A DNA stretch of 32,516 nucleotides from Spirochaetota bacterium (GTDB taxonomy: Bacteria > Spirochaetota > Spirochaetia > Treponematales > UBA12059), in the NCBI GenBank assembly GCA_029548805.1, contig JAKPMS010000016.1:1-32516 (forward strand), in the 5' to 3' direction. Shown piece by piece: positions 361 to 21,722 of this stretch (its first letter is position 1; every line of letters begins with the position of its first letter). Below the pieces are notes generated by a model. The model made no database searches and was not told the origin of the DNA. It saw only the letters and a program-made list of their open reading frames with translations. Made by a program: the position numbers and the translations under genes.

Positions 361-440
361 AACTGGATTCTGTTAAAAAGAGTTGTAAACCCAAGCTTTG
401 GGGCACTAGACTTGATTTGCGGCAAGGATGGCATCTTTTT

Positions 441-470
441 TTGACAAATGGCAAAGCGCCCGGATAGAAA
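441..470 (+). promoter_or_regulatory. Candidate promoter of the hsd operon
   Basis: A perfect -35 TTGACA (441-446) is followed after 18 bp by TAGAAA (465-470) as a weak -10. Transcription would start near 477, just before the AAGGAG ribosome binding site (478-483). This argues for translation from 494 and against the in-frame ATG at 428, which would lie upstream of the promoter. Confidence 0.45.
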
Positions 471-493
471 AAAAGCCAAGGAGAATAAAAAAA

Positions 494-3055
494 ATGAACA
501 AACAAGAGCTTGCCTCAAAAATTTGGGAGTCTGCCAACAAGATGCGCTCCAAGATCGAGGCTAACGAGTACAAGGATTATATTCTCGGGTTTATCTTCTA
601 CAAGTTCCTGTCAGATAAGGAATACGCGTATTTGCGGGCCACGGACTGGGAGGATGCGGATATAAAAAAATACCTCCATGAGAATGACCGCGAAAGCGTA
701 GAAAGCATAAAAAAAAATATAGGCTACTTTATTTCCTACGAGAACCTGTTTTCTACTTGGCTTGCGATGGGGAGCGATTTTAATGTAGGCAATGTCCGCG
801 ATGCGCTGTCGGCGTTTAATCGCTTGATCAACGACAGCCACAAAAAGGTTTTTGAAAAGATTTTTGACACCCTGCAAACCGGCCTTTCCAAGCTGGGCGA
901 CAGCTCCGGCGCTCAAACAAAGGCCATAAGCGACCTTATTCACCTGATAAAAGACATTCCCATGGATGGCCGGCAGGATTACGACGTGCTGGGCTTTATT
1001 TATGAATACCTTATTTCCAACTTTGCCGCCAACGCGGGTAAAAAAGCCGGCGAGTTTTACACGCCGCACGAGGTCTCACTTTTAATGTCGGAGATTGTGG
1101 CAAACCATCTGCATCAGCAAGAAACCATAGAAATTTACGACCCCACCAGCGGCTCCGGCTCTTTGCTTATAAACATTGGCAAAAGCATTGCAAAATATAC
1201 TGGCCAAGGGGACAGAATAAAATACTATGCGCAGGAGCTAAAAGAGAACACCTTTAACCTGACCCGCATGAACCTTGTTATGCGCGGTATTTTGCCGGAC
1301 AACATTCTGGTGCGCTGCGGCGACACGCTGGAAGATGACTGGCCGTACTTCGATGACGCTGACCCCGCAGGAACTTACCGGCCCCTGTATGTAGACGCGG
1401 TGGTATCCAATCCGCCTTATTCCCAAAACTGGAGCCCCGCGGATAAGGAGAGTGACCCCCGCTATAAGGCTTACGGCTTGGCCCCCAAGGGCAAGGCGGA
1501 TTATGCCTTTTTGCTGCATGACCTGTACCACTTAAAGCCCACAGGCATTATGACCATAGTTTTGCCCCATGGAGTACTGTTCCGGGGAGGCGAAGAAGGC
1601 GCAATCCGCAAAAACCTTATAGAGCAAAACAAGATTGACGCCATTATAGGTTTGCCCGCCAATATATTTTTTGGCACCGGCATTCCTACCATTATTATGG
1701 TGCTTAAACAAAAGCGCAGCAGCACAGATGTGCTAATTATTGATGCATCCAAAGGCTACGAGAAAGTAGGCAAGACCAACCGGCTCCGCGCCTGCGACAG
1801 CAAAAAAATTGTGGATGTTATTTCTGCAAGACCCCAAAGCGTGGAGCGCTTTGCCAGGCGGGTGGGGCGGGACGAGATCCGCAATAACGACTATAACCTG
1901 AACATTCCCCGCTATGTGGATTCTTCTGAAAAGCCGGAGAGCTGGGATATTTACGCATCCATGTTTGGCGGCATTCCCGCATCGGAGCTGGCCGAGCTTG
2001 CCCCTTATTGGGAGGCCTTTCCGGGCCTTCAGAAGGCTGTTTTTAAAGGGGGTAGCGGCAAATACCTTAGCGTCAAGTGCGCAGACATAGCTAAAACCGT
2101 TGCCGAGCACGAAAGCGTTCTCTCTTTTGCGGCGGAGTTTAAAAAAGCCTTTAAGGGCTTTGACGGCTATCTTAAAAAAAGCCTTGTAGACAACATGGAA
2201 GGCGTTATAATTTCTAAACAAGAAAATGTCTTAAGCGATTACATTTTTAAGAAGCTAGCAGGTATTCCCCTTATCGACCCTTATGAAGCCTATCAGTTGC
2301 TGGCCTCAGAATGGATTAAAGCGGCTATCGATCTGGAAATTATTCAGTCTGAGGGTTTTGAAGCCACAACTAAGGTTGAGCCCAATATGGTGCTAAAAAA
2401 GAAAGACAACAAGGAGCAGGAGCTGCAGGATGGATGGGCGGGCCGCATTCTGCCCTTTGCGTTAGTGCAAGAAGAGCTGCTGGACAAGGATTTGCACAAG
2501 CTCCGCAGCATGCAGGACAGGCTTGCAGAAATTGCTGTACAAAAAGAAGATCTGTTTGACGAGATGTCGGAAGAAGCCAAAGAAGAGGCTTTTGTAAATG
2601 AAGACAAAACTGCCTTTGTGGATGCGGAGATAAAAAAGGCGCTTAAGGACAAGGCTGCCGACGCTGAGGTACTGGCCATTCTGAAACGCTGCGATGCGCT
2701 TTCTTTAGAAGAAAAGGATTTAAACAAGCAGCTTAAGAAGGAAGAAACGGACCTGCACTTAAAAACCAAGCTTACAATAGAAGGCTTAAGCCGCGAACAG
2801 GTGCTTGCCCTTTTGCATAAAAAATGGATTAGCCCTTTGGTGGATGGCATACATGGTTTGCCCAATAGCTTGTTAAGCGCTTTTACAGCCAAGCTCAGCG
2901 CCCTTGCTGCCAAGTACCAGAGCACCTTTTCTCATGTAGAAGAGGAAATACGGGAAACAGAAATTAGCCTTTGCGCCATGCTGGGCGATCTTGGCGGCAA
3001 CGATTTTGACATGCAGGGCATTGCGGAGTTTAAAAAGCTTTTGGGGGGTGAGTAA
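494..3055 (+). CDS. hsdM: Type I restriction-modification DNA methyltransferase subunit HsdM
   Basis: This is the N6-adenine methyltransferase subunit of a type I R-M enzyme. It methylates host sites with S-adenosylmethionine and joins HsdS and HsdR in the restriction complex. The N-terminal HsdM helical domain covers about residues 1-140. The SAM-binding motif DPTSGSGSLL begins at residue 216 and the catalytic NPPY motif is at 306-309. The C-terminal 250 residues or so are charged and predicted helical, which makes the 853-residue protein longer than the classical 500-residue HsdM but typical of the long HsdM subfamily. ATG 494 was chosen because AAGGAG lies 10 bp upstream and the protein then begins MNKQELASKIWESA, as in homologues. 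The stop codon abuts the hsdS start, so the two are almost certainly cotranslated. Confidence 0.95.
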   Translation: MNKQELASKIWESANKMRSKIEANEYKDYILGFIFYKFLSDKEYAYLRATDWEDADIKKYLHENDRESVESIKKNIGYFISYENLFSTWLAMGSDFNVGNVRDALSAFNRLINDSHKKVFEKIFDTLQTGLSKLGDSSGAQTKAISDLIHLIKDIPMDGRQDYDVLGFIYEYLISNFAANAGKKAGEFYTPHEVSLLMSEIVANHLHQQETIEIYDPTSGSGSLLINIGKSIAKYTGQGDRIKYYAQELKENTFNLTRMNLVMRGILPDNILVRCGDTLEDDWPYFDDADPAGTYRPLYVDAVVSNPPYSQNWSPADKESDPRYKAYGLAPKGKADYAFLLHDLYHLKPTGIMTIVLPHGVLFRGGEEGAIRKNLIEQNKIDAIIGLPANIFFGTGIPTIIMVLKQKRSSTDVLIIDASKGYEKVGKTNRLRACDSKKIVDVISARPQSVERFARRVGRDEIRNNDYNLNIPRYVDSSEKPESWDIYASMFGGIPASELAELAPYWEAFPGLQKAVFKGGSGKYLSVKCADIAKTVAEHESVLSFAAEFKKAFKGFDGYLKKSLVDNMEGVIISKQENVLSDYIFKKLAGIPLIDPYEAYQLLASEWIKAAIDLEIIQSEGFEATTKVEPNMVLKKKDNKEQELQDGWAGRILPFALVQEELLDKDLHKLRSMQDRLAEIAVQKEDLFDEMSEEAKEEAFVNEDKTAFVDAEIKKALKDKAADAEVLAILKRCDALSLEEKDLNKQLKKEETDLHLKTKLTIEGLSREQVLALLHKKWISPLVDGIHGLPNSLLSAFTAKLSALAAKYQSTFSHVEEEIRETEISLCAMLGDLGGNDFDMQGIAEFKKLLGGE

Positions 3056-4189
3056 ATGGCCCAAAAACCAAAGAGACCGGATATTAGATTTAAGGGTTTT
3101 AGCGATGATTGGGAACAGTGTAAGTTGGGGGAATGTTTTGATGAACGCTTAGAACGCTCGGCAGAAGGCGAGTTGATTTCTGTCACTATCAACGAAGGAA
3201 TTAAAAAGTTTTCTGACCTTGGCAGACACGATAATTCCAGTGAGGATAAGTCGAATTACAAAAGAGTTGAAGCTGGAGATATAGCGTATAACTCCATGAG
3301 AATGTGGCAAGGTGCAAGTGGCTACTCCCAATATAGTGGCATTTTAAGCCCTGCATATACTGTTGCCATACCAAAAGAAGATATCGATTCACTATTCTTT
3401 TCGTATGTATTTAAGAAGCCACAAATGATACACACTTTTCAGATTCGTTCCCAAGGCATCACATCAGATACATGGAATTTGAAGTTTCCTGCATTCAGTG
3501 AAATAGAAACTATGCTTCCCAAAATTGAAGAACAAGCTCAAATCGGCAGCTTCTTTTCCACCCTCGACAATCTCATCACCCTTCATCAGCGTAAGTATGA
3601 GAAACTTCAAAACATAAAAAAATCTTGTTTGGAAAAAATGTTCCCAAAAGCCGGAAGCAATGTACCCGAACTTCGGTTTAATGGATTTAGCGATGCTTGG
3701 GAGCAGTGTAAGTTGGGGGAGATTTTAGATGTGCATAGCGGTAGAGATTATAAACACCTGCAAGAAGGGCCAATTCCCGTTTATGGCACAGGTGGATATA
3801 TGCTCAGTGTAAGCGAAGCACTTTCATATTCTGAAAATGCTATTGGGATTGGACGTAAAGGAACGATTGATAAACCATATATTTTAAAAGCACCATTTTG
3901 GACAGTAGATACTCTATTTTATGCCATTCCACAAGAAAAATATGATCTATATTTTCTGTTCGATATTTTTCAGAATATTGATTGGAAGAAAAAAGATGAG
4001 TCGACAGGAGTCCCGAGTTTATCAAAAACTGCGATAAATGATATTGAAGTTCTTGTTACAGATCTAGAAGAACAGAAACAAATCGGCACATTTTTCCGCA
4101 ACCTCGACCAGCTCATCACCCTTCATCAGCGTAAGTATGAGAAGCTTCAGAACATAAAAAAATCTTGCCTGGAAAAAATGTTTGTGTAA
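3056..4189 (+). CDS. hsdS: Type I restriction-modification specificity subunit HsdS
   Basis: This is the DNA-recognition subunit that sets the bipartite target site for HsdM and HsdR. At 377 residues it has the usual two-fold architecture. Target-recognition domain 1 covers about 1-150 and a conserved helix about 160-200. TRD2 covers about 205-340 and the second helix about 345-377. Both halves open with a near-identical segment (GFSD-WEQCKLGE) and close with the same helix (LITLHQRKYEKLQNIKKSC). Its ATG directly follows the hsdM stop codon. The DNA-level identity of the helix-coding segments would allow TRD exchange or deletion by recombination. No inverted spare hsdS cassette is visible nearby, so invertible phase variation is not supported. 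Confidence 0.95.
   Translation: MAQKPKRPDIRFKGFSDDWEQCKLGECFDERLERSAEGELISVTINEGIKKFSDLGRHDNSSEDKSNYKRVEAGDIAYNSMRMWQGASGYSQYSGILSPAYTVAIPKEDIDSLFFSYVFKKPQMIHTFQIRSQGITSDTWNLKFPAFSEIETMLPKIEEQAQIGSFFSTLDNLITLHQRKYEKLQNIKKSCLEKMFPKAGSNVPELRFNGFSDAWEQCKLGEILDVHSGRDYKHLQEGPIPVYGTGGYMLSVSEALSYSENAIGIGRKGTIDKPYILKAPFWTVDTLFYAIPQEKYDLYFLFDIFQNIDWKKKDESTGVPSLSKTAINDIEVLVTDLEEQKQIGTFFRNLDQLITLHQRKYEKLQNIKKSCLEKMFV
3541..4185 (+). repeat. Long direct repeats within hsdS
   Basis: Nucleotides 3541-3645 and 4081-4185, exactly 540 bp apart, are nearly identical in the part encoding the conserved spacer helix. The longest identical run starts near 3572/4112. A second pair, around 3101-3129 and 3689-3717, encodes the start of each half. 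Because 540 is a multiple of three, recombination between the helix repeats would leave an in-frame, single-TRD hsdS. Confidence 0.85.
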
Positions 4190-4207
4190 GGCAGAAGGGA
4201 AGGTAGT

Positions 4208-4339
4208 ATGGCATTCACAAAACCAATTTACAAAATATGCAAAAGGCAAAATCTGACAAAGTTCCGGCTAACTACAAGCTTCGATCTGAAAATAGGCCAG
4301 TTTAGCAAGATCCCGTTTGGAGGGGCTATAAATGACTAA
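4208..4339 (+). CDS. Possible 43-residue small protein between hsdS and the RhuM remnant
   Basis: An ATG at 4208, preceded by a purine-rich GGAAGG, opens a 43-codon frame that ends in TAA at 4337-4339. It overlaps the next start codon (4332) by 8 bp. The product is basic and has no recognisable motif or membrane segment. The overlap would allow translational coupling into the RhuM-like remnant, but the frame may be fortuitous. This 142-bp gap otherwise holds nothing recognisable. Confidence 0.25.
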   Translation: MAFTKPIYKICKRQNLTKFRLTTSFDLKIGQFSKIPFGGAIND

Positions 4340-4562
4340 GAAGAAAACGCCTAACGAACTGCGGATTCGCAACAGCACTGCGGAATTTCTGACCTTCGTT
4401 TATTCAGTTACCGAGGAATTCTCGGTAACTGCAAAAATTGCCAAGGACTACGCTGAAAGCGAGTTTGAAAAGTACCGCACTATCCAGGACAGGCTGTTTC
4501 AAAGCGACTTTGACCGATTCGTGGAGTTGGAACGGCAAGCTGACATAAAAGACCAAGAGTAA
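4332..4562 (+). CDS. Miniature RhuM-family remnant (N- and C-terminal ends joined)
   Basis: The 76-residue product begins with a stretch (NELRIRNSTAEFLTF) that resembles the N-terminus of RhuM/virulence-RhuM proteins. It ends with one (KDYAESEFEKYRTIQDRLFQ followed by SDFDRF) that resembles their C-terminus. RhuM proteins are normally about 330 residues and often lie inside type I R-M loci. The large middle part is absent, yet the frame is intact, with GGAGG upstream (4320-4324) and a 12-bp gap to the hsdR start. A perfect 11-bp inverted repeat lies at the join. The likeliest reading is an in-frame internal deletion that keeps the operon polar-neutral. The family match is from memory of homologues; whether the peptide has any function is unknown. 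Confidence 0.6.
   Translation: MTKKKTPNELRIRNSTAEFLTFVYSVTEEFSVTAKIAKDYAESEFEKYRTIQDRLFQSDFDRFVELERQADIKDQE
4405..4431. repeat. Perfect palindrome at the RhuM deletion junction
   Basis: CAGTTACCGAG (4405-4415) is followed by the loop GAATT (4416-4420) and the exact reverse complement CTCGGTAACTG (4421-4431). It encodes the repeated peptide SVTEEFSVT at the point where RhuM-like N- and C-terminal sequences meet. It may be a deletion scar or an mRNA hairpin. There is no T-tract, so it is not a terminator. Confidence 0.85.
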
Positions 4563-4574
4563 AAGGGAGTGCGC

Positions 4575-7500
4575 ATGGCATTTATAAAAGAAAGCGATTT
4601 TGAAAATGCTCTAATTAGCATGCTTACCAAGTCCTACGGCTGGGAAGCTGAGGTATTAAAGCACAAAAGCGAAAAAGAGCTCCTAAAAAACTGGGCCAAC
4701 ATACTATTTGAAAACAACCGCAGCATTGACCGCCTAAACGACTACCCTTTGACTGATGGCGAAATGCAGCAGATTATAGAGCAGATTGTAACGCTAAAGA
4801 CCCCGCTAAAGCTTAACGGCTTTATTAACGGGCGTACTGTGTCCATTACACGGGACAACCCGGATGACGCGGCGCATTTTGGCAAAGAGGTAAGCTTAAA
4901 AATTTATGACCGGCAGGAGATTGCCGCAGGCCAAAGCCGCTATCAGATTGCCCGGCAGCCAAGATTTGCCGCCCAAAGCTCCATGCTCCCGGAACGCCGC
5001 GGCGACTTTATACTGCTTATTAATGGCATGCCGGTAATACATGTGGAGCTTAAAAAAACCGGCATTCCCGTTTCTCAAGCTTATAGCCAGATAGAAAAAT
5101 ATGCGCACGAGGGGGTCTTTTCCGGCCTTTTTGCTTTGGTGCAGGTCTTTGTGGCCATGAACCCGGAAGAAGCCCTTTACTTTGCCAACCCCGGCCCGGA
5201 AGGGCGTTTTAATTCCGATTTTTACTTCCACTGGGCAGACTTTAATAACGAACCCATAAACGACTGGAAAAGGCTTGCATCCACACTGCTGTCCATTCCC
5301 ATGGCGCACCAGCTTATAGGATTTTATACCGTTGCCGACGATTCTGACGGCTCTTTAAAGGTGATGCGCTCCTATCAGTATTATGCGGCCAATAAAATAT
5401 CCGACACAGTTGCCAAAAACAAATGGGAAATAGGCAGCCAGCTTGGCGGTTATGTATGGCATACCACCGGCAGCGGAAAAACGCTAACCTCTTTTAAATC
5501 TGCCCAGCTTATTGCCAATTCCAAAGATGCGGACAAGGTGGTATTTTTAATTGACAGAATAGAACTTGGAACTCAGAGCGCCCGTGAATACCGGGGCTTT
5601 GCGGAGGAAACCGACTCCATACAGGAAACAGAAGACAGCGCTGTTCTGCTTGCCAAGTTAAAAAGCTCAAGCCCTGCAGATACCCTTATTGTTAGCTCGA
5701 TTCAGAAGATGAGCAATATAAATGACGATGCCGATGGCTGGCTTAAAAAAGAGGACATAAATACCATAAGCGCCAAGCGGGAGGTGTTTATTGTGGACGA
5801 GTGTCACCGCTCCACCTTTGGCAACATGATGCAGACAGTTAAGCAGACCTTTCCTAAAGCCCTATTCTTTGGTTTTTCCGGTACACCCATTCAGATTGAA
5901 AACAAAAAAAAGGGCAACACCACAGCCGATGTTTTTGGCAACGAGCTGCACCGCTACAGCATAGCCGACGGCATACGCGACAAAAACGTTCTTGGCTTTG
6001 ACCCGGACAAGGTGCTTACCTTTACAGAAAAGGATATGCGAAAGGCCGTAGCCCTGGATAAGGCTAACGCGGACAGTGTAGAAGCTGTTTTTGCGGACGA
6101 TAGAAAAAAAGAAATCTATTACAAGTATATGAATGATGTTCCCATGGCAGGCTATGACGACGCAGACGGAAGCTATGTTCAGGGTATAGAAGATATACTT
6201 TTGGCAAAAAAGCAATACGAGACGGAAGAGCACCAACAGATGGTGGTAAATGACATCTGTGATAACTGGATAACCATTAGTCACAACTACAAATTCCACG
6301 GCCTTTTTGCTACTTCCAGTATTCCGGAGGCTATCCGCTATTACAGGCTCTTTAAAAAAACCGCTCCCCAATTAAAGGTAAGCGCCCTGTTTGACCCAAG
6401 TATAGACAACAACGGAACCGGCATAGAAAGAGAAGATGCGCTAGTGGAAATTATTACAGATTATAACAGCCGCTACGGCCAGACTTTTACAATTCCTACT
6501 TACGGAAAGATGAAGAAGGATATCCAATACCGCCTGGCGCATAAAAGGCCTTATGAACGCATTGAGCACTCCCGTGATGAGCATATTGATCTGCTGATTG
6601 TTGTTGACCAGATGCTGACCGGCTATGATTCCAAATGGCTTAATGTTTTGTACCTAGATAAATTGATGCAGTATGAAGCCATTATACAGGCTTTTTCTCG
6701 TACCAACAGGCTTTTTGGGCAGGATAAACCCTTTGGCTCCATCAAGTATTATCGCGCCCCGTTTACTATGGATAAAAAAATTGCCGAGGCAGTTAAGCTT
6801 TACTCCGGCGACAAGCCGCTGGGAATGTTTGCAATTAAGCTGGATAAAAACCTGGAAAACATGAATGCCGTATATACGCAAATTAAGAATGTATTTGTTC
6901 AGGCAGGCATCCCCGATTTTGAAAAGCTTCCGGATGATATTTCCGAGCGGAAGAAGTTTGCCAAGCTCTTTAAGGAATTTAACGAGTATCTGGAAGCTGC
7001 CAAGGTGCAGGGTTTTGTCTGGAGCAATCAATCTTATTCCTTTACTGACGAAAAAACAAAAAATAGCTGTACGATAGAGCTTCTGCCTGAGGAAAATAGT
7101 TATTTAATTTTAACACTGCGTTATAAAGAGCTGGTCTCGGAAACGGCCGGCAGCAAAAGTGAAGATGCCCCCTATGATCTTGTAGGCTACCTTAGCACAA
7201 TTAGCACGGACGAGATTGACGCGGATTATATGAACTCCCGCTTTGAAAAATATAAAAAGACCCTTTTTGGCAGCAAGCCGGAAGAAATTCAAAACGCCAA
7301 AGCGGAGCTTCATAAGACCTTTGCGTTCCTGTCCCAGGAAGAACAGAAGTACGCCAATCTGTTTCTGCACGACATAGAAAGCGGCGATATTCGCCCGGAA
7401 GAAGGCAAAACGCTGCGGGACTATATAAGCGAATATACAGAAAAAGCCAAGAGCGACCAGATTTATCGCGTAGCATCTGCGCTTGGGCTGGACGAGAGTA

Positions 7501-7718
7501 TGCTAAGAGACATGATGGCACTAAATGTGAATGACTCCAACATAAACGAGTACGGAAGGCTGGACAAGCTTAAAGCCACGGTTGTTAGAGAAAAAGCTGC
7601 ACAATACTTTACCTCGCTGAAAAATGAACAAATCCCGCCGCACAGAGTAAGCATGAAAGTGGATGCTCTTTTGCGCAAATTCATTATTTCCGGCGGTGAT
7701 GAGATACCCTTGCCCTAA
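4575..7718 (+). CDS. hsdR: Type I restriction endonuclease subunit HsdR
   Basis: This is the ATP-dependent DNA translocase and nuclease subunit of the type I system. The N-terminal PD-(D/E)xK nuclease core is visible as D144 followed by E158-L-K160. The superfamily 2 helicase motor follows, with Walker A TTGSGKT at 297-303, DECH at 408-411 and a motif III-like FSGTP. A C-terminal helical region would contact the HsdM/HsdS core. The length of 1047 residues is normal for the family. The start at ATG 4575 has GGGAG 5 bp upstream; a GTG at 4569 in the same frame overlaps that ribosome binding site and is less likely. All catalytic residues look intact, so the locus should be restriction-competent together with hsdM and hsdS. 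Confidence 0.95.
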   Translation: MAFIKESDFENALISMLTKSYGWEAEVLKHKSEKELLKNWANILFENNRSIDRLNDYPLTDGEMQQIIEQIVTLKTPLKLNGFINGRTVSITRDNPDDAAHFGKEVSLKIYDRQEIAAGQSRYQIARQPRFAAQSSMLPERRGDFILLINGMPVIHVELKKTGIPVSQAYSQIEKYAHEGVFSGLFALVQVFVAMNPEEALYFANPGPEGRFNSDFYFHWADFNNEPINDWKRLASTLLSIPMAHQLIGFYTVADDSDGSLKVMRSYQYYAANKISDTVAKNKWEIGSQLGGYVWHTTGSGKTLTSFKSAQLIANSKDADKVVFLIDRIELGTQSAREYRGFAEETDSIQETEDSAVLLAKLKSSSPADTLIVSSIQKMSNINDDADGWLKKEDINTISAKREVFIVDECHRSTFGNMMQTVKQTFPKALFFGFSGTPIQIENKKKGNTTADVFGNELHRYSIADGIRDKNVLGFDPDKVLTFTEKDMRKAVALDKANADSVEAVFADDRKKEIYYKYMNDVPMAGYDDADGSYVQGIEDILLAKKQYETEEHQQMVVNDICDNWITISHNYKFHGLFATSSIPEAIRYYRLFKKTAPQLKVSALFDPSIDNNGTGIEREDALVEIITDYNSRYGQTFTIPTYGKMKKDIQYRLAHKRPYERIEHSRDEHIDLLIVVDQMLTGYDSKWLNVLYLDKLMQYEAIIQAFSRTNRLFGQDKPFGSIKYYRAPFTMDKKIAEAVKLYSGDKPLGMFAIKLDKNLENMNAVYTQIKNVFVQAGIPDFEKLPDDISERKKFAKLFKEFNEYLEAAKVQGFVWSNQSYSFTDEKTKNSCTIELLPEENSYLILTLRYKELVSETAGSKSEDAPYDLVGYLSTISTDEIDADYMNSRFEKYKKTLFGSKPEEIQNAKAELHKTFAFLSQEEQKYANLFLHDIESGDIRPEEGKTLRDYISEYTEKAKSDQIYRVASALGLDESMLRDMMALNVNDSNINEYGRLDKLKATVVREKAAQYFTSLKNEQIPPHRVSMKVDALLRKFIISGGDEIPLP

Positions 7719-7866: not shown

Positions 7867-7895
7867 TTGACTAAATCGATAAATATTTATACAAT
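7867..7895 (+). promoter_or_regulatory. Candidate promoter of the hydrogenase operon
   Basis: TTGACT (7867-7872) and TACAAT (7890-7895) are separated by an ideal 17-bp spacer. They lie 17 bp upstream of the first gene of the operon, which has AGGAG at 7901-7905. Confidence 0.6.
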
Positions 7896-7912: not shown

Positions 7913-8182
7913 ATGGATAGTTCAGGGCAAAATCATACTGTTGTTACCATTTGCATGGGAAGCTCATGTTTTTCTCGCGGAAACAACCTAAATGCGGAAA
8001 TAATCGAGCACTTTTTGCAAGAAAACAATTTGGGCGCCAAGGTTGAGCTGCAAGGATGCCTGTGCAACGGGCAATGCAAAACGGGCCCCAATTTGCGGAT
8101 AAATGACGAGCTTATTCAGGGAGTGGAACCAAGCATGATTGTGGATCTTTTAAAGCACAAGCTTTGCGGAGGCCAAAATTGA
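7913..8182 (+). CDS. Thioredoxin-like [2Fe-2S] ferredoxin (NuoE/HydC-like) upstream of the sensor hydrogenase
   Basis: This is a small electron-transfer protein of 89 residues with the C-x4-C ... C-x3-C arrangement of thioredoxin-fold [2Fe-2S] ferredoxins (C14 and C19, then C51 and C55, with an extra C49). In anaerobes such domains pass electrons between NAD(P)H-linked modules and [FeFe] hydrogenases. The ATG at 7913 has AGGAG 7 bp upstream. The gene ends inside the start of the sensor hydrogenase: TTG 8179-8181 overlaps TGA 8180-8182, so translation is coupled and the two proteins probably act as partners. A paralogue precedes the second hydrogenase at 11172. Confidence 0.85.
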   Translation: MDSSGQNHTVVTICMGSSCFSRGNNLNAEIIEHFLQENNLGAKVELQGCLCNGQCKTGPNLRINDELIQGVEPSMIVDLLKHKLCGGQN

Positions 8183-9924
8183 ATTATCTGAACCCCATTT
8201 ATACAGAAAAAACCCAATGCCAGGATTGCTACAAGTGCATCCGGGAGTGCCCTGTCAAGGCAATACAGGTAGAAAACGGGCATGCCACCATTATTCCGGA
8301 GCTATGTGTGCTTTGCGGTCATTGCGTTACCATTTGCCCTGCGGGCGCCAAAAAAGTCCGCGATGACCTGTCCAGGGCAAAGCAGTTGTTAAAGCTCAAA
8401 AGCAAGGTTATTCTTTCTATTGCTCCTTCTTTTGCTTCGGAATTTCCCGGAATTTCCAGCGAAGTTTTGGTGTCTGCGGCAAAGCAATTGGGTTTTTTTG
8501 GTGTTTCAGAGACAGCGATAGGTGCAGATCTCGTTTCCGCCCAGCTTGCGGAAGATTTTACAGGCTCTAAGCTTCAAAAACTGTATATTTCTTCTGCCTG
8601 TCCTTCTGCTGTTGAATATATAAAACATTATTTGAGCGAATATACTCCGTATATTACAGATCGCGCCTCACCGTTATTGGCCCACACAAGGCTGTTAAAA
8701 AATCTGTATGGAAAAGACCTGGGCATTGTTTTTGTCGGCCCCTGTATTGCAAAAAAAAGGGAGGCTGATATATGGTCGCTGCCAGACTGCGCTATCGGCT
8801 TTGCAGACTTTAAACGATGGCTTGAATCGGCTGGAATTAAGCTGGAAGCGGTCCGTAATGCCATGGGCAGCAGTAAAAAAGACAAGAAAACCGAACCTTT
8901 TATACCGTACAGGGCAGGAAAAGGGTCTTTGTACCCTGTAGACGGCGGAATGATAGCCTCTGTCAAAAAGTACGCAAAACTTGACAAGTTCGACACTATA
9001 GCGGTCGCTGGCATCAGCGAAATAGACAAGGCCTTGCGTGGCCTGGACCTGGATGCTTTGGAAACCCCGCTTTTTATGGAGCTTCTTGCCTGCCCTGGCG
9101 GCTGCATAAACGGTCCCCTGACAAGTGCTGGAGAAGCAAAGGCCCTGAAGCGCATACGGCTTCTGGATTATGCCCGAAGCACCAAGGATACCCTGGACGA
9201 AAAACGGCCAAACATGGAAGGAACCATACCGGTTTCTCCGGCAAAGCAAAAAATGCATAGCGAAGAAGAAATAACATTGGCCCTGCGGCAGGTCGGCAAA
9301 ACCGAGCCAAAGGACGAACTGAATTGCGGCAGCTGCGGATACGATACATGCAGGGCTTTTTGTGCGGCCATGCTTGACCATCGCGCAGAAAAAACAATGT
9401 GCGTTTCATATATGCGTACTTTGGCGCAACGCAAGGCAAACGGGCTTATGCAAACAATTCCGTCAGGAGTTGTTATCTGCGATTCTAGCCTTAAAATAAT
9501 CGAATGCAATGAAAACTTTGCGCGCATGATGGGCAGCGATATTTTAAGCATGTACGAGGCAAAGCCCGGAATGGAAGGGGCGGCTATAGAAAAAATAAGC
9601 AGCATCTCTGCAATCTTTCAGGACGTTTTGGCGCCTAATGGGCCGGATATTGTTGAGCATGAACATCGCGAAAAAAGAAAAGTGTTTCAAGTTTCCGTGT
9701 TTACCATAGAAAAAGGCGAAATTGCCTGCGGTGTTTTGCAGGATGTTACAGCACCCCAAATACGAAGGGACAGGGTTGTAAAGCAGGCTAAGAAGGTTAT
9801 AGAAAAGAACCTGGCCGTAGTCCAGAAGATAGCTTTCCTGCTGGGCGAAAATGCAGCAGAAACCGAGGTCACGCTCAATTCAATTATAGAATCTTTTTCC
9901 GCAGACGAGGGAGATGCGGAATGA
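8179..9924 (+). CDS. Sensor-type [FeFe] hydrogenase with Fe-S and PAS domains (HydS-like)
   Basis: This is a putative H2-sensing hydrogenase of 581 residues. Domains in order are two [4Fe-4S] clusters (C14/17/20/24 and C43/46/49/53), the H-cluster domain (about 85-345), an extra Fe-S domain (CGSCGYDTC from residue 383) and a PAS domain (about 425-540). The H-cluster ligands are present: C141, C189, C305 and C309. The first Cys of the canonical TSCCP motif is Ala140 (SSACP), so the Cys that relays protons in catalytic enzymes is missing. This substitution is known from sensory hydrogenases such as Thermotoga HydS. The start is TTG 8179, chosen because GGAGG lies 6 bp upstream and it overlaps the previous stop codon. 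It overlaps the phosphatase gene by 4 bp, which suggests redox or H2 signals pass through PAS to that phosphatase. Confidence 0.9.
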   Translation: MNYLNPIYTEKTQCQDCYKCIRECPVKAIQVENGHATIIPELCVLCGHCVTICPAGAKKVRDDLSRAKQLLKLKSKVILSIAPSFASEFPGISSEVLVSAAKQLGFFGVSETAIGADLVSAQLAEDFTGSKLQKLYISSACPSAVEYIKHYLSEYTPYITDRASPLLAHTRLLKNLYGKDLGIVFVGPCIAKKREADIWSLPDCAIGFADFKRWLESAGIKLEAVRNAMGSSKKDKKTEPFIPYRAGKGSLYPVDGGMIASVKKYAKLDKFDTIAVAGISEIDKALRGLDLDALETPLFMELLACPGGCINGPLTSAGEAKALKRIRLLDYARSTKDTLDEKRPNMEGTIPVSPAKQKMHSEEEITLALRQVGKTEPKDELNCGSCGYDTCRAFCAAMLDHRAEKTMCVSYMRTLAQRKANGLMQTIPSGVVICDSSLKIIECNENFARMMGSDILSMYEAKPGMEGAAIEKISSISAIFQDVLAPNGPDIVEHEHREKRKVFQVSVFTIEKGEIACGVLQDVTAPQIRRDRVVKQAKKVIEKNLAVVQKIAFLLGENAAETEVTLNSIIESFSADEGDAE

Positions 9925-11150
9925 GTGACACGTCAAGTACAGCTGCGTTTATAGAAGTGGGCCATTATCAGCTTTACAAGGCGGGGCAGGGCGCGGGAGG
10001 AGATACCTTCCTTTCCAGGAAAAATGAAAACGACGGGCGCGTCATTACCGTTTTGTCGGACGGGCTCGGCTCCGGCATAAAAGCGGGGGTGCTTTCGGCC
10101 TTGACCGCAACAATGGCATTAAACTTTATTTCTTCTGACATTCCCATTCAAAGAGCGGCGGAAATTATCATGGAAACGCTTCCTGTATGCAAACAGCGCG
10201 GGATAAGTTATGCAACCTTTACGCTTGTGGACATAAAACCCAACTCGATTGTAAAAATAATGGAGTATGACAATCCTGCTTTTGTATTGGTCAGGCAGGA
10301 AACCCTTGTAGAGCCCATAAAAAACTTCACGGTAATAGAACGGAAAAACAAGAAAACCGCTCCGGCAAAAAAAGCTTTGGTCTATTATTCGGATTACAAA
10401 GCAAGGCCGGGGGACAGGCTTGTGTTTTTCTCTGACGGTGTAACACAGGCGGGTATGGGCACAAAGCAGTTTCCTTTGGGCTGGGGAGCATCGCGCACCC
10501 AGGAATTTGTTCTTGACCTGATAAAAGAAAACAGGGACATAAGCGCCCGCGACCTTGCTAAAAAAATAGTTATAAAGGCCCAGCAATTTGATTGCTACCT
10601 TGCCAAAGACGATATAACCTGCGGCGTCATTTATTTCAGAAAACCGCGGGACCTTTTGATTATGACCGGCCCTCCGGTAAACCCGGAAAAGGATCCCGAA
10701 ATGGTGCGTGTATTTGTGGGCTTCAACGGAAAAAAGATTGTATCCGGTGGAACCACGACCAACATCATTTCGCGGGGCACGGGCAAAAAAGTTAAAATTT
10801 TGTTCAAGAATCTGGATCCCAAAATTCCCCCCATGTCCGAAATGGAGGGAGCGGATTTGGTAACAGAAGGAATAATTACCCTTGGCCGTGTGGCGGAAAT
10901 TCTGGAACAGGGCTCCCGCATAGCTGCTGGTTCTTTTGCAGAAAAAGACAGGGAAAACGGCGCGGGTAAAATTGTGGAACTTCTGCTGGACAGCGACCGC
11001 ATCAACTTTATTGTCGGGACCCGCATAAACGATTCACACCAGGATCCCAATATGCCTGTAGAGCTGGAAATAAGGCGAAACATTGTAAAACGCATCGAAT
11101 CGCTCCTTGTGGAGCATTATCTTAAAGAAGTACATATCCGCTATATTTGA
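9921..11150 (+). CDS. SpoIIE/PP2C-family serine phosphatase coupled to the H2 sensor
   Basis: This 409-residue protein has a PP2C-type phosphatase domain in its first 235 residues or so. The metal-binding Asp residues are visible in LSDGLGSG (D47), FFSDGVTQAG (D172) and DDITCGV (D230, D231). In this family such enzymes dephosphorylate Ser/Thr on regulators, for example anti-sigma-factor antagonists. The C-terminal 170 residues form a second domain that I do not recognise; it begins around the PPVNPEKDPE segment. The ATG at 9921 overlaps the sensor stop codon (ATGA). No anti-sigma factor or STAS-domain substrate is encoded in the window, so the target is unknown. The neighbourhood implies an output step from H2 sensing. 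Confidence 0.85.
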   Translation: MSDTSSTAAFIEVGHYQLYKAGQGAGGDTFLSRKNENDGRVITVLSDGLGSGIKAGVLSALTATMALNFISSDIPIQRAAEIIMETLPVCKQRGISYATFTLVDIKPNSIVKIMEYDNPAFVLVRQETLVEPIKNFTVIERKNKKTAPAKKALVYYSDYKARPGDRLVFFSDGVTQAGMGTKQFPLGWGASRTQEFVLDLIKENRDISARDLAKKIVIKAQQFDCYLAKDDITCGVIYFRKPRDLLIMTGPPVNPEKDPEMVRVFVGFNGKKIVSGGTTTNIISRGTGKKVKILFKNLDPKIPPMSEMEGADLVTEGIITLGRVAEILEQGSRIAAGSFAEKDRENGAGKIVELLLDSDRINFIVGTRINDSHQDPNMPVELEIRRNIVKRIESLLVEHYLKEVHIRYI

Positions 11151-11171
11151 CATGCGGACATAGGAGACAAA

Positions 11172-11429
11172 ATGTCCAAAAAAATCAGGGTGCTTGTCTG
11201 TACGGGAACTGCGTGCTTTGTTATGGGAGCTTCAGACATTTTACTGCTGGAAGAAAATCTTCCGGAGGAATTAAAAAACCGTGTTGAGCTGGAAGGCGCA
11301 AGCTGCCTGGGCCATTGCAAAAACAGCAGCCATGGAAAAGCCCCCTTTGTAATGATAGACGATGAACTTGTTTCCAACGCAAGCGTTCTTTCTGTTGTTG
11401 CCAGGATCAGGGAGCTAGCTGATGCTTAA
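11172..11429 (+). CDS. Thioredoxin-like [2Fe-2S] ferredoxin (NuoE/HydC-like) upstream of the second hydrogenase
   Basis: This 85-residue protein carries the ligand set C10, C15, C45 and C49 (C-x4-C ... C-x3-C) of the thioredoxin-fold [2Fe-2S] family. It is a paralogue of the protein encoded at 7913. It begins 21 bp after the phosphatase gene with TAGGAG upstream, and it overlaps the next hydrogenase by 8 bp. The repeated arrangement of ferredoxin then hydrogenase, with overlapping frames in both cases, suggests that each hydrogenase has its own dedicated electron partner. Confidence 0.85.
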   Translation: MSKKIRVLVCTGTACFVMGASDILLLEENLPEELKNRVELEGASCLGHCKNSSHGKAPFVMIDDELVSNASVLSVVARIRELADA

Positions 11430-12867
11430 CCTTAATAACGGTGCTTCCAAAATCAAGCGCGAAATTCTTGTCCGAATAGCAGAACTCCAGCTTGCAGGAA
11501 AGCTGGAAGAAGAGCTGCACTTTATTCCCCGCAATATGGCTCCCAGGAATTCTGAGTCCTTCCGCTGCTGCATTTATCACGATCGCGAAGTTTTGAGGCT
11601 TAGGGTTATAGCCCGCTTGGGCCACAGCGTAGAAGATTATGATGATGAAAAAAGGCTGTCGGAATATGCACATGAAGCCCTGATGCGCGAAAGACCTACC
11701 GAGCCCATGCTGACCGTTCTTGATGACGCTTGCAATGCCTGTGTCCGTGCCCACTATATGGTTACCAATGCCTGCCAAGCCTGTGTTGCGCGCCCATGCA
11801 TAATGAATTGCCCCAAAAGCTGTATCGATATAAAAAATGGACGGGCATTTATAGATCCGGAAGCCTGCGTCAACTGCGGTATTTGCATGCAAAACTGTCC
11901 TTACCACGCAATTATACGCATCCCCGTCCCCTGCGAAGAAGCCTGTCCTGTAGGCGCCATCAGCAAAGACGAAAACGGAAAAGAACGCATAGATTACTCT
12001 AAATGCACCTTTTGCGGAGCCTGCATGCGCGAATGTCCTTTTGGTGCAATGATGGACAAGGGCCAGATAGTAGATGTAATCCGTAAACTAATGGAAGGCA
12101 AAAAGCTTGTGGCCTTGTATGCACCCGCCATTGCAGCCCAATTCAGGGCAGTTCCGGGCCAGCTGGAAGCAGCATTGAAACAGGCAGGATTTTACAAAGC
12201 TTTTGAAGTAGCCCATGGAGCGGATATTACCGCTGACAAGGAAGCTGCTGAATTTGAAGAGCGCATGGATGGGGGAGACGTGCTTATGACCAGCTCCTGT
12301 TGTCCCGCCTATGTAAGATCGGTAAAAATCCACGCTCCGGACCTTATCCCCTTTGTTTCTGAAACAAGGTCTCCGATGCACTACACGGCAGTTTTAGCCA
12401 AAGAAGAAAACCCCGATTATGTTACCGTCTTTATTGGCCCCTGCCTGGCCAAACGAAAAGAAGGGCTTGATGATCCCTATGTTGACTATGTTCTTTCTGC
12501 CGAAGAAATCGGGGCAATTTTTATGGCAAAACAAATAGATATAGGCAGCTGCGAAGCGCTGGAATGCAGCGAACAGCCTACTGCCACGGGACGCAATTTT
12601 GCCCAATCTGGCGGGGTCGCAGAGGCTGTGCGCATACGCCTTAAAAACCCCGAAGGTCTGCGCCCGGCAATAATTAACGGCCTGGATCTGGCCGGAATGA
12701 AACAGCTAAAAGCCTATGGAAAAGCGGCAGCCGAAGGAAAACCCTGTGATGCAAACCTTGTAGAAGTTATGGCTTGTCCAGGCGGTTGTATTGCGGGGCC
12801 TTCTGTTATTACAAACCCTAAAGTTGCCGCAGTCCAGCTTAAGAAATATGTAAGCGGAGGCAAATGA
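11422..12867 (+). CDS. [FeFe] hydrogenase, monomeric type, with multiple [4Fe-4S] clusters
   Basis: This is a catalytic hydrogenase candidate that interconverts H2 with protons and electrons, probably in the cytoplasm. An N-terminal region of about 95 residues leads into several Cys-rich ferredoxin motifs between residues 99 and 215, including CVNCGICMQNCP and CTFCGACMRECP. The H-cluster domain follows. The motifs are intact: SSCCPAY with C293 (proton relay) and C294 (ligand), GPCLAK with C341, and MACPGGC with C452 and C456. At 481 residues it is in the range of group B monomeric enzymes. The start at ATG 11422 overlaps the ferredoxin gene by 8 bp. This enzyme is the plausible catalytic counterpart of the sensor-like hydrogenase encoded upstream. 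Confidence 0.92.
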   Translation: MLNLNNGASKIKREILVRIAELQLAGKLEEELHFIPRNMAPRNSESFRCCIYHDREVLRLRVIARLGHSVEDYDDEKRLSEYAHEALMRERPTEPMLTVLDDACNACVRAHYMVTNACQACVARPCIMNCPKSCIDIKNGRAFIDPEACVNCGICMQNCPYHAIIRIPVPCEEACPVGAISKDENGKERIDYSKCTFCGACMRECPFGAMMDKGQIVDVIRKLMEGKKLVALYAPAIAAQFRAVPGQLEAALKQAGFYKAFEVAHGADITADKEAAEFEERMDGGDVLMTSSCCPAYVRSVKIHAPDLIPFVSETRSPMHYTAVLAKEENPDYVTVFIGPCLAKRKEGLDDPYVDYVLSAEEIGAIFMAKQIDIGSCEALECSEQPTATGRNFAQSGGVAEAVRIRLKNPEGLRPAIINGLDLAGMKQLKAYGKAAAEGKPCDANLVEVMACPGGCIAGPSVITNPKVAAVQLKKYVSGGK

Positions 12868-12876: not shown

Positions 12877-12950
12877 TTATTGCAGCGGCGCAAAGGAAGC
12901 TGTGTCATGTTATTATAAATTCAGGCAAGAGCATCGTTATATACATCTGG

Positions 12951-12980
12951 CTAAGCCAGGTTTAGCCAGGTTTAGCCAGA
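12951..12980. repeat. Three tandem 10-bp units
   Basis: The unit TTTAGCCAGG occurs in three consecutive copies (the first and third each differ by one or two bases). The repeat lies at the 3' end of the beta-lactamase-family relic and contributes its stop codon. Slippage-type expansion is likely. Confidence 0.8.
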
Positions 12981-13262
12981 CAGGCATTGGCCAAGGCTAT
13001 CCTGAAGTCATTTATTATCCTGGGTTGCAGAACATTCTGGCGATTGGTCAGAATGCTTATGATGGAGCCGGATTGTATATTCAAGTACAGGTAGCTGCCG
13101 GTAAAACCGGTATGACCCCATCCTCCATGCGGGTATAGTTCTCCGCACTGCCAGCCCAAACCCCGGTTTGATCCCCAGTCCCTGAACACCTGTTCCTTAA
13201 GCGCCGGAGAGATGAACCCGGCCAACTGTGCTGGCGCTGCTGGTGGCGGTGGTGGATGAGAC
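12962..13262 (-). pseudogene. C-terminal fragment of a serine beta-lactamase/DD-peptidase family protein
   Basis: On the minus strand an open frame encodes a segment with GLGWQ, then GHTGFTGSYLYL and ISILTNRQN. This is the typical C-terminal signature of class C beta-lactamase and esterase-type serine hydrolases. The N-terminal domain with the SxxK nucleophile is absent; upstream the frame becomes a proline-rich stretch and then loses similarity. The fragment is therefore a relic. The rest of the gene-free stretch 12868-13440 holds the tandem repeat and, from 13263 to 13440, nothing I recognise. Confidence 0.7.
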
Positions 13263-13440
13263 CATCCAGATTTTCTCCGTCTACGGCCCCTAGCTCATGG
13301 ATGTGTGGCTTGATCTGTGCGGCGCTTTCGCAGGCCTTTTTACTGCTTGGCTTATTAGTCGGAATTGTAAAACCACCAGACCCCCGTTCCAGGGGATTTT
13401 GATACACGGGCGCCTATGTGCGGATCATCAAGTGCCTTCA

Positions 13441-18574: not shown

Positions 18575-19578
18575 AAGGTCTTTCCTACAAATAGCAGGCC
18601 AGTAAGCAAGGAGCCCAAAACAATTACAAGCAAGCTCTGGGCGTACATAAGCAAAACAGCCCTCTTTATGTCTTTTGGTATGGCGTCTTGTCCGTTAGGG
18701 TTTAGCCATGGTTTGTCCACAAGGCCTTCTGCATAAAAAGAAGGGCCGCCCAGTTTTAAACCCAGGGCGCCTGCGTAGGCGGCTTCCGGATGGCCGGAGT
18801 TGGGGCTTTCATGGGCAAGGCGGTATGCAAAAAAGCTTTTAAGCGACGCTTTTATGCTGCCTCCGGCAATGGGCGCCAAAAAGCAAGCTGCAAAGCCGGA
18901 TACGCGTGCAGCTATCCAGTTGGCAGCGTCATCGGCCCTGGCAGACAGGCGGCCAAAGTACATATACTTTTCGTCCTTGTGCCCGAACATGGAGTCCATG
19001 GTGTTTATGGCCCTGTAAACAAAGGCAGCCCATGGGCCAAGCACAAAGGCCCAGAATAACGGGGCAGCCACTGCGTCCACAGAGCTTTCTGCAACGCTTT
19101 CTATGCATGCCCGGGCTACTCCGCTGCTGTCCAGCCTTTCTGTATTGCGCCCGACCATCATGGATACTGCCAGCCTGCCTTGCAAAGGGGCTGCCTGCCT
19201 GCCTTGGGCCTGGTCCTCTTTCAGTGCCAAGTATACTCTATAGGCATGCAAGGCCAGGTCCTTTGCGGATATGGATGCCCACACAAAAAAGCTGCCCATG
19301 GCCATTCTGGGGACGGGCCCAAAAACAGAAGCCATTTTTATTGCAAGCCATGCCAGCAGCCCGGAAGAGCATGCAATAATTATCCAGCACAAGCTGCCAG
19401 CCATGGCCTCAGCCCTGGCTTTTTTAAGCGGGCTCTTAAGGAGTAATGGGCGCAGCAGCTTTTCCAGCCGGCTAGCTGCCCTGCCCAACAGTCTTACAGG
19501 ATGCATTGCAAAAACGGGGTCGCCTATCAGGCTGTCAAGCGCAAAGGCAAAGACAATTGTTATGATTCGTTCACTCAT
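18571..19578 (-). CDS. cbiB: Adenosylcobinamide-phosphate synthase CbiB
   Basis: This is an integral-membrane enzyme that attaches (R)-1-aminopropan-2-ol phosphate to adenosylcobyric acid in the lower-loop pathway of cobalamin. It has 335 residues with several hydrophobic helices. Family motifs include GDPVFAMHPVRLLGR near the N-terminus, the central VARACIESVAESSVD and NSGHPEAAYAGALGLKLGG. The start codon overlaps the stop codon of the CobD-CbiP fusion (ATGA), and it is the last gene of the riboswitch-controlled operon. The substrate is made by the upstream CobD domain, so the two work in sequence. Its stop codon sits at the edge of the AT-rich island and of the orphan gene start. Confidence 0.93.
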   Translation of the reverse strand: MSERIITIVFAFALDSLIGDPVFAMHPVRLLGRAASRLEKLLRPLLLKSPLKKARAEAMAGSLCWIIIACSSGLLAWLAIKMASVFGPVPRMAMGSFFVWASISAKDLALHAYRVYLALKEDQAQGRQAAPLQGRLAVSMMVGRNTERLDSSGVARACIESVAESSVDAVAAPLFWAFVLGPWAAFVYRAINTMDSMFGHKDEKYMYFGRLSARADDAANWIAARVSGFAACFLAPIAGGSIKASLKSFFAYRLAHESPNSGHPEAAYAGALGLKLGGPSFYAEGLVDKPWLNPNGQDAIPKDIKRAVLLMYAQSLLVIVLGSLLTGLLFVGKTF

Positions 19579-21722
19579 AAGCCGAGTGCTGCAAGGATTG
19601 CGGGCATATCCACATTGGCTTTTACTATGGCAGCCAGTCTTGAAAGCTCCGCATCCAGCTCATTGGCCGGGTTTGCGCTCTTTGCGGCCTGCTTTTCTTT
19701 TTGGGCCTGCAAAAGCCCGTCGTCCTCTTCCGGTATTGCTAAGTTTTTTATCATGGGTATGCAGCCAAGCACCGGGTGCCCAGTGCGCTCCTTTGTCATG
19801 TTGAACGCGTCTCCAAGCAGGGCGGGGTCTCCCCTGAACTTGTTTACAACAAAGCCTGCTAGCAGCTTTAATTCCATGGGCAAAAAGCAGGCTGTGTGTC
19901 CTATAAAAGACGCAAATACTCCGCCCCTGTCAATGTCGCCCACTAGCAGCACTTTGGCGTCAGCATAAATGGCGGCTCCCATGTTTACAAAGTCGCGGGC
20001 TTTAAGGTTTATTTCTGCCGGGCTTCCGGCGCCTTCCAGAATGACAAGCTCGTAGTCCGATGCAAGCGAGTCGTATGCAGCTCTGGCAGCGTCTTTCATC
20101 ATGCTGTTAAGTGCATAATAGTCCTTTGCGCCAAGGCTTGCAAAATGCTTGCCCATAAGATATACATCCGAGCTGTAGTCGCTTTTTGGTTTTAACAGCA
20201 GCGGGTTCATGCGGGCTTCCGGTTCAAGGCCGGCTGCCATGGCTTGTATAGCCTGGGCCTGGCTTATTTCCAGCCTCCCATCCAGTTTGGCAGAAAAGCC
20301 TGACATGTTCTGTGCCTTGTAAGGGGCAAGCCTAATGCCCATGTCCCGGAAGATGCGGCAAAATGCTGCTGTTATAATACTTTTACCCGCGCCGGAAGAG
20401 CAGCCCTGTATCATAAGCGCCTTGGCGCATGGTCTGGCCCTATGGCCAGCACTGGGAGGGGTTAATGGCTTTTCTTCCACCCTCTCTTCCGGCCCAAGCA
20501 GAGTCCCAAGCGCTTCCAGGATTGCGCTGTTTTCCTTTTCTGTTCTTACTGCAATTCTTATATAAGCCGAACCTAGCCCGTAAAAGTTTTCGCAGCGCCT
20601 TATGCCTATGCCCATTTCTGCCAGGCGCATGGCAAGCGAGCTTCCGCTGCCCGCTTCTTTTGCTACTTTTACCAGGTAGTAGTTGGTGTCCGAGCTTAAT
20701 GCTGTAAGCCCTTTTATTTTTGCCAATTCTGCGGCCATGCGCTTTCGCTCTTGGCTCACAAAAGACAGGGTTTGCATGCGCCGCTCTTCTGCTTTGGGGT
20801 CGGCAAAAGCCAGGCGGGCTGCGGCTTCTGCCACAGAGTTTAGCGGCCAGTTGGGCAGCTCTTCCCGCAGAGCTATGGCCAGCTCCGGAGCGGCTATGGC
20901 ATAACCAAGGCGCAGGCCTGGTATGGCCCAGAACTTGGTCATGGACCTGAGTATGATAATGTTTTTTAAGCCCTGTTTTGCAAAAAGGTCCAGGGCGGAA
21001 TTGCCCTGCCCCGGTTCTCCATTGCCTGGAGCTGTGCATAAATCTGCAAAGGCTTCGTCTACGGCTATATAATGTTCCGGAAAACTGCCGGCCAGTTTTG
21101 GCAGTATATGCGGCCAGCCCGGAGGCATTATGCCTGTGGGGTTGTTTGGCGTGCCAAGCCACAGTATGGAGCCTGTGCCCGCAGCCTGCATGGCAGAAGC
21201 CAGCCTTGTAAAAGCTTCCTGCTCAGCGAGCTCTTTTTCAGCTTTGCCTGCGCCGGGCACGCTGGGCACGCTGGCCGCTATGGAGGCCAGAGCTGCTTGG
21301 GGGATTTGCGCCTTTACGCTGATTATTTTTAAGCCGGCTAAAAGGGATGCATCCCTGTAGCTTGCGTATGAAGGCTCTTCCACTATGGCAGATGCCAGCG
21401 GCCGCCTTTTTGCAGCAAGCCTGGCCAGCGCAAACATGAGCTCGTCCGCGCCGTTGCCAAAAACAAGGCTGTCCTTGTCAACTTTAAGAAAAGAAGAGGC
21501 AATGCTTTTTAATTCCCGGTATTCCGGGTCGGGGTAGCGCCCCGAGTCCAGCCTGCCCTGCATAAAGGCCGCATCCAGCCAATCAGGAGGGCCAAGCGGG
21601 TTTATGTTTGCGCTTGCGTCTATAATGGACGCTTCCGGAAGCCCAGATGCAATGCTTATGCCGAAAAAGTCTCCGCCATGTTTGGCTGATGGCCTAGCGC
21701 CCGGCTGTTCAGCCTGCGTCAC
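19575..21722 (-). CDS. Fusion of threonine-phosphate decarboxylase (CobD) and the N-terminal domain of cobyric acid synthase (CbiP)
   Basis: The 715-residue protein has two parts. Residues 1 to about 410 are a PLP-dependent CobD: the NPLG start motif, TPNNPTG, DEAFAD and the Schiff-base lysine K263 in SMTKFWAIPGLRLGY. They convert L-threonine phosphate to aminopropanol phosphate. Residues from about 432 to 715 match the ATP-binding synthetase domain of CbiP/CobQ: GCSSGAGKS (440-448), KAQNMSGFS, MNPLLLKP and GDIDRGGVFASF. The protein ends at the PEED motif, so the GATase_3 glutaminase domain with its catalytic Cys is missing. Full CbiP is about 500 residues. It would need free ammonia or a separate amidotransferase. 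The start is GTG 21722, overlapping the btuD stop codon (GTGA). Confidence 0.88.
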   Translation of the reverse strand: MTQAEQPGARPSAKHGGDFFGISIASGLPEASIIDASANINPLGPPDWLDAAFMQGRLDSGRYPDPEYRELKSIASSFLKVDKDSLVFGNGADELMFALARLAAKRRPLASAIVEEPSYASYRDASLLAGLKIISVKAQIPQAALASIAASVPSVPGAGKAEKELAEQEAFTRLASAMQAAGTGSILWLGTPNNPTGIMPPGWPHILPKLAGSFPEHYIAVDEAFADLCTAPGNGEPGQGNSALDLFAKQGLKNIIILRSMTKFWAIPGLRLGYAIAAPELAIALREELPNWPLNSVAEAAARLAFADPKAEERRMQTLSFVSQERKRMAAELAKIKGLTALSSDTNYYLVKVAKEAGSGSSLAMRLAEMGIGIRRCENFYGLGSAYIRIAVRTEKENSAILEALGTLLGPEERVEEKPLTPPSAGHRARPCAKALMIQGCSSGAGKSIITAAFCRIFRDMGIRLAPYKAQNMSGFSAKLDGRLEISQAQAIQAMAAGLEPEARMNPLLLKPKSDYSSDVYLMGKHFASLGAKDYYALNSMMKDAARAAYDSLASDYELVILEGAGSPAEINLKARDFVNMGAAIYADAKVLLVGDIDRGGVFASFIGHTACFLPMELKLLAGFVVNKFRGDPALLGDAFNMTKERTGHPVLGCIPMIKNLAIPEEDDGLLQAQKEKQAAKSANPANELDAELSRLAAIVKANVDMPAILAALGL

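Follow-up and report, generated by a model that had tools for sequence, protein, structure and literature searches.

Organization of the operon

Five co-directional, closely packed genes occupy positions 7913-12867 of contig JAKPMS010000016.1 from a Spirochaetota bacterium (assembly GCA_029548805.1). The whole stretch of DNA that was analysed, called the window below, is 32,516 nucleotides long and is contig C21 of a 2.39 Mb genome in 215 contigs. The genes encode a small iron-sulfur protein (Fd1), a sensory-type [FeFe] hydrogenase (HydS), a SpoIIE-type PP2C phosphatase, a second small iron-sulfur protein (Fd2) and a catalytic [FeFe] hydrogenase (HydB). The operon is not a new system but a spirochete representative of the phosphatase-linked sensory [FeFe] hydrogenases already known (group C3 of HydDB by its linkage, hfs-type).

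All five open reading frames were confirmed, as a preliminary description of this DNA had proposed. Fd1 and HydS overlap by 4 bp when HydS is read from the TTG at 8179, HydS and the phosphatase by 4 bp (ATGA, 9921-9924), and Fd2 and HydB by 8 bp. The only intergenic gap measures 21 bp. The description had also given each hydrogenase its own ferredoxin. A small iron-sulfur gene does precede each of them, but both products are single-domain thioredoxin-like [2Fe-2S] proteins (PF01257) and not 2[4Fe-4S] ferredoxins.

The two hydrogenases

HydS carries two 4Fe-4S motifs at its N-terminus, an H-domain (Fe_hyd_lg_C, PF02906, E=3e-40), a C-terminal FeS domain (PF04060, residues 386-414, above the cut-off) and a PAS domain (PF13188, residues 428-462, barely above its cut-off), and ends with a helix after the PAS domain. 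These residue ranges are numbered from 8164. The TTG at 8179 is preferred as the start because the relatives begin at the same place. Counted from there, the H-cluster cysteines are 141, 189, 305 and 309, and the proton-relay position is Ala140, in agreement with the preliminary description. A motif alignment with the genome's own group A and group B enzymes revealed further changes in the relay and the second sphere (E279 to L, E282 to D, S319 to T, M353 to G and M497 to L in CpI numbering). A relay alanine alone is no definitive sign of a sensory enzyme, so class membership rests on the whole architecture. Judged from the sequence by its four cysteines, its FeS-PAS tail and its altered proton path and second sphere, HydS is a sensory group C [FeFe] hydrogenase.

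HydB, recognised downstream as an intact monomeric hydrogenase, belongs to TIGR04105, the family of monomeric group B [FeFe] hydrogenases. Its H-cluster cysteines are 294, 341, 452 and 456, and the relay Cys293 and both glutamates are kept.

The phosphatase and its C-terminal domain

The SpoIIE domain of the phosphatase was matched at residues 38-237 (PF07228, E=1.4e-14). The metal-binding acids of PP2C enzymes (D28, D47, D172, D230/D231) are invariant across 14 aligned sequences. From this alignment, AlphaFold2 gave a model with a predicted local distance difference test (pLDDT) of 84 and a predicted template modelling score (pTM) of 0.82; the single-sequence model was useless (pLDDT 35). In Foldseek, the best PDB matches of the model were SpoIIE (5mqh, E=1.8e-12) and 3pu9. 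The protein opens directly with the catalytic domain and has no N-terminal sensor domain. Therefore, its signal must arrive from another chain or via the C-terminal domain.

The C-terminal domain of about 165 residues is well conserved (alignments A1-A3), with the motifs GPP, GGTT, G-D-L-V-T-E-G and VGT-N-AHQDP. The preliminary description had called it unrecognised, and this proved right: no Pfam family was matched (best E 0.08-0.13). A SIS (phosphosugar-binding) identity was considered and rejected. The PDB profile search gave only E=0.8 to phosphoheptose isomerase, and the hhalign probability was 0.3%, the SIS alignment used in this comparison being mixed and not ideal. With the full-length model, the PDB matches listed by Foldseek were phosphatases, and the viral matches comprised phosphatases and noise.

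The domain also occurs without a working phosphatase. In genus g36 a gene of its own encodes it (189-210 amino acids), directly 5' of the subunit genes of a bifurcating hydrogenase (loci L055-L057), and this domain was all that the full-length phosphatase query matched in the g36 genomes. At L070:4423-5592, a pseudophosphatase has lost its metal-binding acids (D28S, D47N, D172N, D230/D231 to GG) and has kept the C-terminal domain intact. It adjoins an intact HydS, in a single genome that is 79% complete. As the domain stands alone in one genus and is retained on a dead enzyme in another, a function of its own is suggested. The preliminary description saw in it a candidate for the signalling interface of the phosphatase. 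It may well have an important role, but occurrence without the phosphatase suggests more than a plain contact surface with HydS. Tentatively, and with the balance tilted against so specific a reading, the domain may be a separable and so far unrecognised signalling module of [FeFe] hydrogenase systems, perhaps a ligand-binding alpha/beta domain, with an independent part in hydrogenase control. This reading derives from its retention where the phosphatase is dead (L070) or absent (before the bifurcating-hydrogenase genes of L055-L057). The independent occurrence offers a new handle, and the ligand or partner of the domain may be the missing link from sensor to output.

Conservation in relatives

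A search of genome contigs yielded 14 relatives, mostly spirochete metagenome-assembled genomes, which makes a spirochete host very probable. The order Fd1-HydS-PP2C-Fd2-HydB is kept in L007, L008, L010-L014, L069, L072 and L074. In L006, L009, L015 (from Chitinispirillales) and L017, contig ends cut the set, and the order agrees as far as it can be read. Because the same order recurs in other species, the five-gene arrangement is not due to chance. Among 244 genomes of the order, 46 have an orthologue of the phosphatase (at least about 44% identity), 10 have a member of a distant subfamily (30-37% identity), and 6, which all belong to one genus, have only the C-terminal domain.

The genes of HydS and the phosphatase are adjacent in nearly every examined locus that holds both, the exception being L058 of the distant subfamily, where HydB lies in between. 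The neighbouring hydrogenase is of group B in most loci, and bifurcating hydrogenase genes are found in L018, L062, L068 and L070. The adjacency persists in these four and in L063, L065, L066 and L071, despite a changed or missing hydrogenase partner. An apparent fusion of the two genes in L068 was an artefact of overlapping open frames, which are two separate open reading frames. In the distant subfamily (L058, L060, L061), the set is located behind adhE and a small gene for an APH/RIO-like kinase. This protein is a candidate for the kinase opposing the phosphatase. No homologue of the adhE-linked kinase of L058 was found in the operon's own genome, in a search made without a positive control.

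Table 1. Features of the operon (positions of the window) and related genes at other loci (locus:positions)
Feature	Position	Strand	Evidence
Fd1, thioredoxin-like [2Fe-2S] protein (NuoE C-terminal-domain type), 89 aa	7913..8182	+	PF01257 E=5.7e-08; same place in relatives
HydS, sensory-type (group C) [FeFe] hydrogenase, 581 aa from TTG 8179	8179..9924	+	Domain matches, motifs, start by relatives
SpoIIE-type PP2C phosphatase, 409 aa; catalytic domain about residues 10-240	9921..11150	+	Domain match, metal-binding Asp, model
Phosphatase C-terminal domain, residues 240-409	10638..11147	+	Motif conservation; outside Pfam; alone in L055-L057
Fd2, thioredoxin-like [2Fe-2S] protein, 85 aa	11172..11429	+	PF01257 E=7.6e-09
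HydB, catalytic monomeric group B [FeFe] hydrogenase, intact SCCP, 481 aa	11422..12867	+	TIGR04105 535.8 bits, cut-off 450
Candidate sigma-70-type promoter TTGACT-17-TACAAT, 10/12, 5' of operon	7867..7895	+	Weak; number of such sites about that expected by chance
Stand-alone C-terminal-domain genes	L055:4787-5353, L056:4020-4649, L057:3110-3676
AdhE and APH/RIO-like kinase gene upstream of Fd-HydS	L058:79-3443, L060:9295-12658, L061:3-3430

Comparison with known systems

In HydDB, group C3 [FeFe] hydrogenases are phosphatase-linked and putatively sensory (PMC5037454). The operon shares with them the direct pairing of a group C hydrogenase gene and a Ser/Thr phosphatase gene, and no difference was seen. 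In the hfsABCD operon of Thermoanaerobacterium, HfsB is a HydS homologue, HfsC a serine phosphatase and HfsD a catalytic [FeFe] hydrogenase (PMC11837493). In both operons, a PAS-bearing sensory hydrogenase is followed by a serine phosphatase and then by a ferredoxin-linked catalytic hydrogenase. They differ in their first genes, HfsA being described as partly matching the large subunits of [FeFe] hydrogenases, and the small [2Fe-2S] protein before each hydrogenase is a spirochete feature. Deletion of hfsB raised adhE expression and ethanol yield in Thermoanaerobacterium (PMC5707799).

The Ruminococcus albus HydS/HydA2/adhE cluster likewise brings together a sensory hydrogenase, a phosphatase and a fermentative hydrogenase. 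Its expression follows H2: the cluster (group C hydrogenase, phosphatase, adhE, hydrogenase) was 111-fold down in a co-culture that kept H2 low (PMC6776011). An adjacent Ser/Thr kinase was proposed in R. albus (PMC5707799). In contrast, neither adhE nor such a kinase gene lies in the window; the distant spirochete subfamily resembles R. albus in having adhE and the APH/RIO-like kinase gene. As for the Thermotoga maritima sensor TmHydS, the relay alanine, the altered second-sphere residues and the PAS domain are common to both proteins, but the M497 position is Leu in the spirochete HydS and Ser267 in TmHydS.

New here are the phosphatase domain without a Pfam family and with independent occurrence, the probable transfer of the operon, and a second sensory hydrogenase accompanied by an RsbW-like kinase.

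Proposed mechanism and alternatives

It is likely that the operon is a phosphatase-linked sensor of the known type, in which HydS signals H2 to the phosphatase and fermentative electron disposal is adjusted. The architecture, the conserved linkage and the intact catalytic residues are direct observations. HydS would have a detuned H-cluster to which H2 binds slowly. The redox or conformational state of HydS might then be relayed via the C-terminal FeS domain, the PAS domain and the C-terminal helix to the phosphatase of the overlapping gene; the two proteins probably form a complex. The phosphatase would dephosphorylate a regulator phosphorylated on Ser/Thr, and control would presumably run from there to the disposal of fermentative electrons, with the operon's own group B hydrogenase among the enzymes affected. 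The mechanism drawn in the preliminary description, a loop from H2 to phosphatase to hydrogenase expression or activity, is close to a published hypothesis, as the HydDB C3, hfsABCD and R. albus pairings match it. Such a loop from H2 to the phosphatase and gene expression is plausible and agrees with the C3, HfsB-HfsC and HydS proposals, with Thermoanaerobacterium genetics and with R. albus transcriptomics. Three points are weaker than the preliminary description had them: the relay alanine as a sensory sign, the adjacent hydrogenase as the target and the C-terminal domain as a plain interface. H2 measurement and the switching of fermentation routes in anaerobes bear on gut ecology and biofuel strains, and the operon represents the phosphatase-linked sensor in a compact and widely conserved form.

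Several points limit this account or weigh against it. The relay alanine had been taken as an established sensory sign, but sensory sequences have Ala in about 43% and Cys in 17%, and T. maritima HydS with Ala131 turns over H2, A131C lowering its activity (PMC10055695). H2 does not reduce the C-terminal cluster of TamHydS, a homologue from group D (PMC13104023). In the literature searched, no experiment was found in which a signal passes from a group C [FeFe] hydrogenase to a phosphatase. The operon has no linked substrate, sigma factor or repressor, and a search upstream of it for a Rex-like operator site found none. The same-genus loci L065 and L066 have the HydS-phosphatase pair without an adjacent catalytic hydrogenase. 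Hence, the adjacent hydrogenase is no obligatory target, and its role as a target is further weakened because the pair adjoins, depending on the relative, a group B hydrogenase, a bifurcating hydrogenase, AdhE with a kinase-like gene, or no hydrogenase at all.

HydS could instead sense the redox state of the ferredoxin or electron pool, the electrons of its [2Fe-2S] partner setting the state of the H-cluster and H2 being a mere proxy. The thioredoxin-like [2Fe-2S] partner gene of each hydrogenase fits this, as does the published suggestion that HfsB may respond to the redox potential of the cell (PMC11837493). HydS nevertheless keeps all H-cluster ligands, which pure redox sensing would not need, and a redox sensor is considered rather unlikely. 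It is quite unlikely that HydS is a slow catalytic hydrogenase with a structural PAS domain and that the phosphatase exerts post-translational control on the hydrogenases or ferredoxin proteins instead of acting on a transcription regulator. TmHydS is measurably active despite its Ala131 (PMC10055695), and the stand-alone C-terminal domain beside bifurcating hydrogenase genes (L055-L057) would suit such control; the altered adhE expression after hfsB deletion points to gene regulation (PMC5707799).

The phosphatase might also take part in a partner switch. The preliminary description suggested looking for an anti-sigma/STAS pair elsewhere in the genome, and a canonical RsbW-STAS-SpoIIE set does exist on another contig. 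The genome encodes five SpoIIE-domain proteins, two STAS proteins and many HATPases. No anti-sigma kinase or STAS substrate is linked to the operon, both STAS matches lying on other contigs, one in the canonical set and the other with a zinc-ribbon-like tail. Contig C122 (L032:176-2264, G000:C122) does carry a gene for a kinase of the appropriate family, in the operon of a second sensory-type hydrogenase. The order there is a DRTGG-like protein, the RsbW-like kinase and HydS2, a group D-like enzyme with SACPA and FeS-type C-terminal cysteines and without a PAS domain. The name DRTGG is our own assignment, made without a profile search. The DRTGG orthologue is present in 105 of the 244 genomes: 25 have it together with the phosphatase, 80 have it alone, 21 have the phosphatase only and 118 neither (Fisher one-sided p=0.06). 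This co-occurrence is not significant, and the kinase was rejected as an obligate partner. Given also the canonical set elsewhere, a switch between the phosphatase and the C122 kinase is very unlikely.

Origin of the operon

The proteins of the operon cluster with counterparts from other spirochetes, including family f3, and apart from their same-genus homologues, with strong support for HydS. HydB, for instance, has 85% identity to the protein of genome G194 vs 45% to that of the same-genus G042. Two other genes of the window have their best matches in same-genus genomes (57-62% identity). Mis-binning of the contig was therefore rejected, and the foreign affinity is better explained by transfer of the operon. 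On this sequence evidence, the operon was probably acquired by transfer between spirochete families.

Neighbouring genes

A type I restriction-modification set (hsdM, hsdS, hsdR; 428-7718) lies directly upstream of the operon. The region 12900-13440 seems degenerate, with short repeats (tttagccag) and a minus-strand open frame that resembles a serine-hydrolase fragment. Further downstream, the stretch 19578-21722 encodes an aminotransferase joined to a CbiA/CobQ-type domain. It belongs to a cobalamin gene cluster, with CobD and a FecCD transporter nearby.

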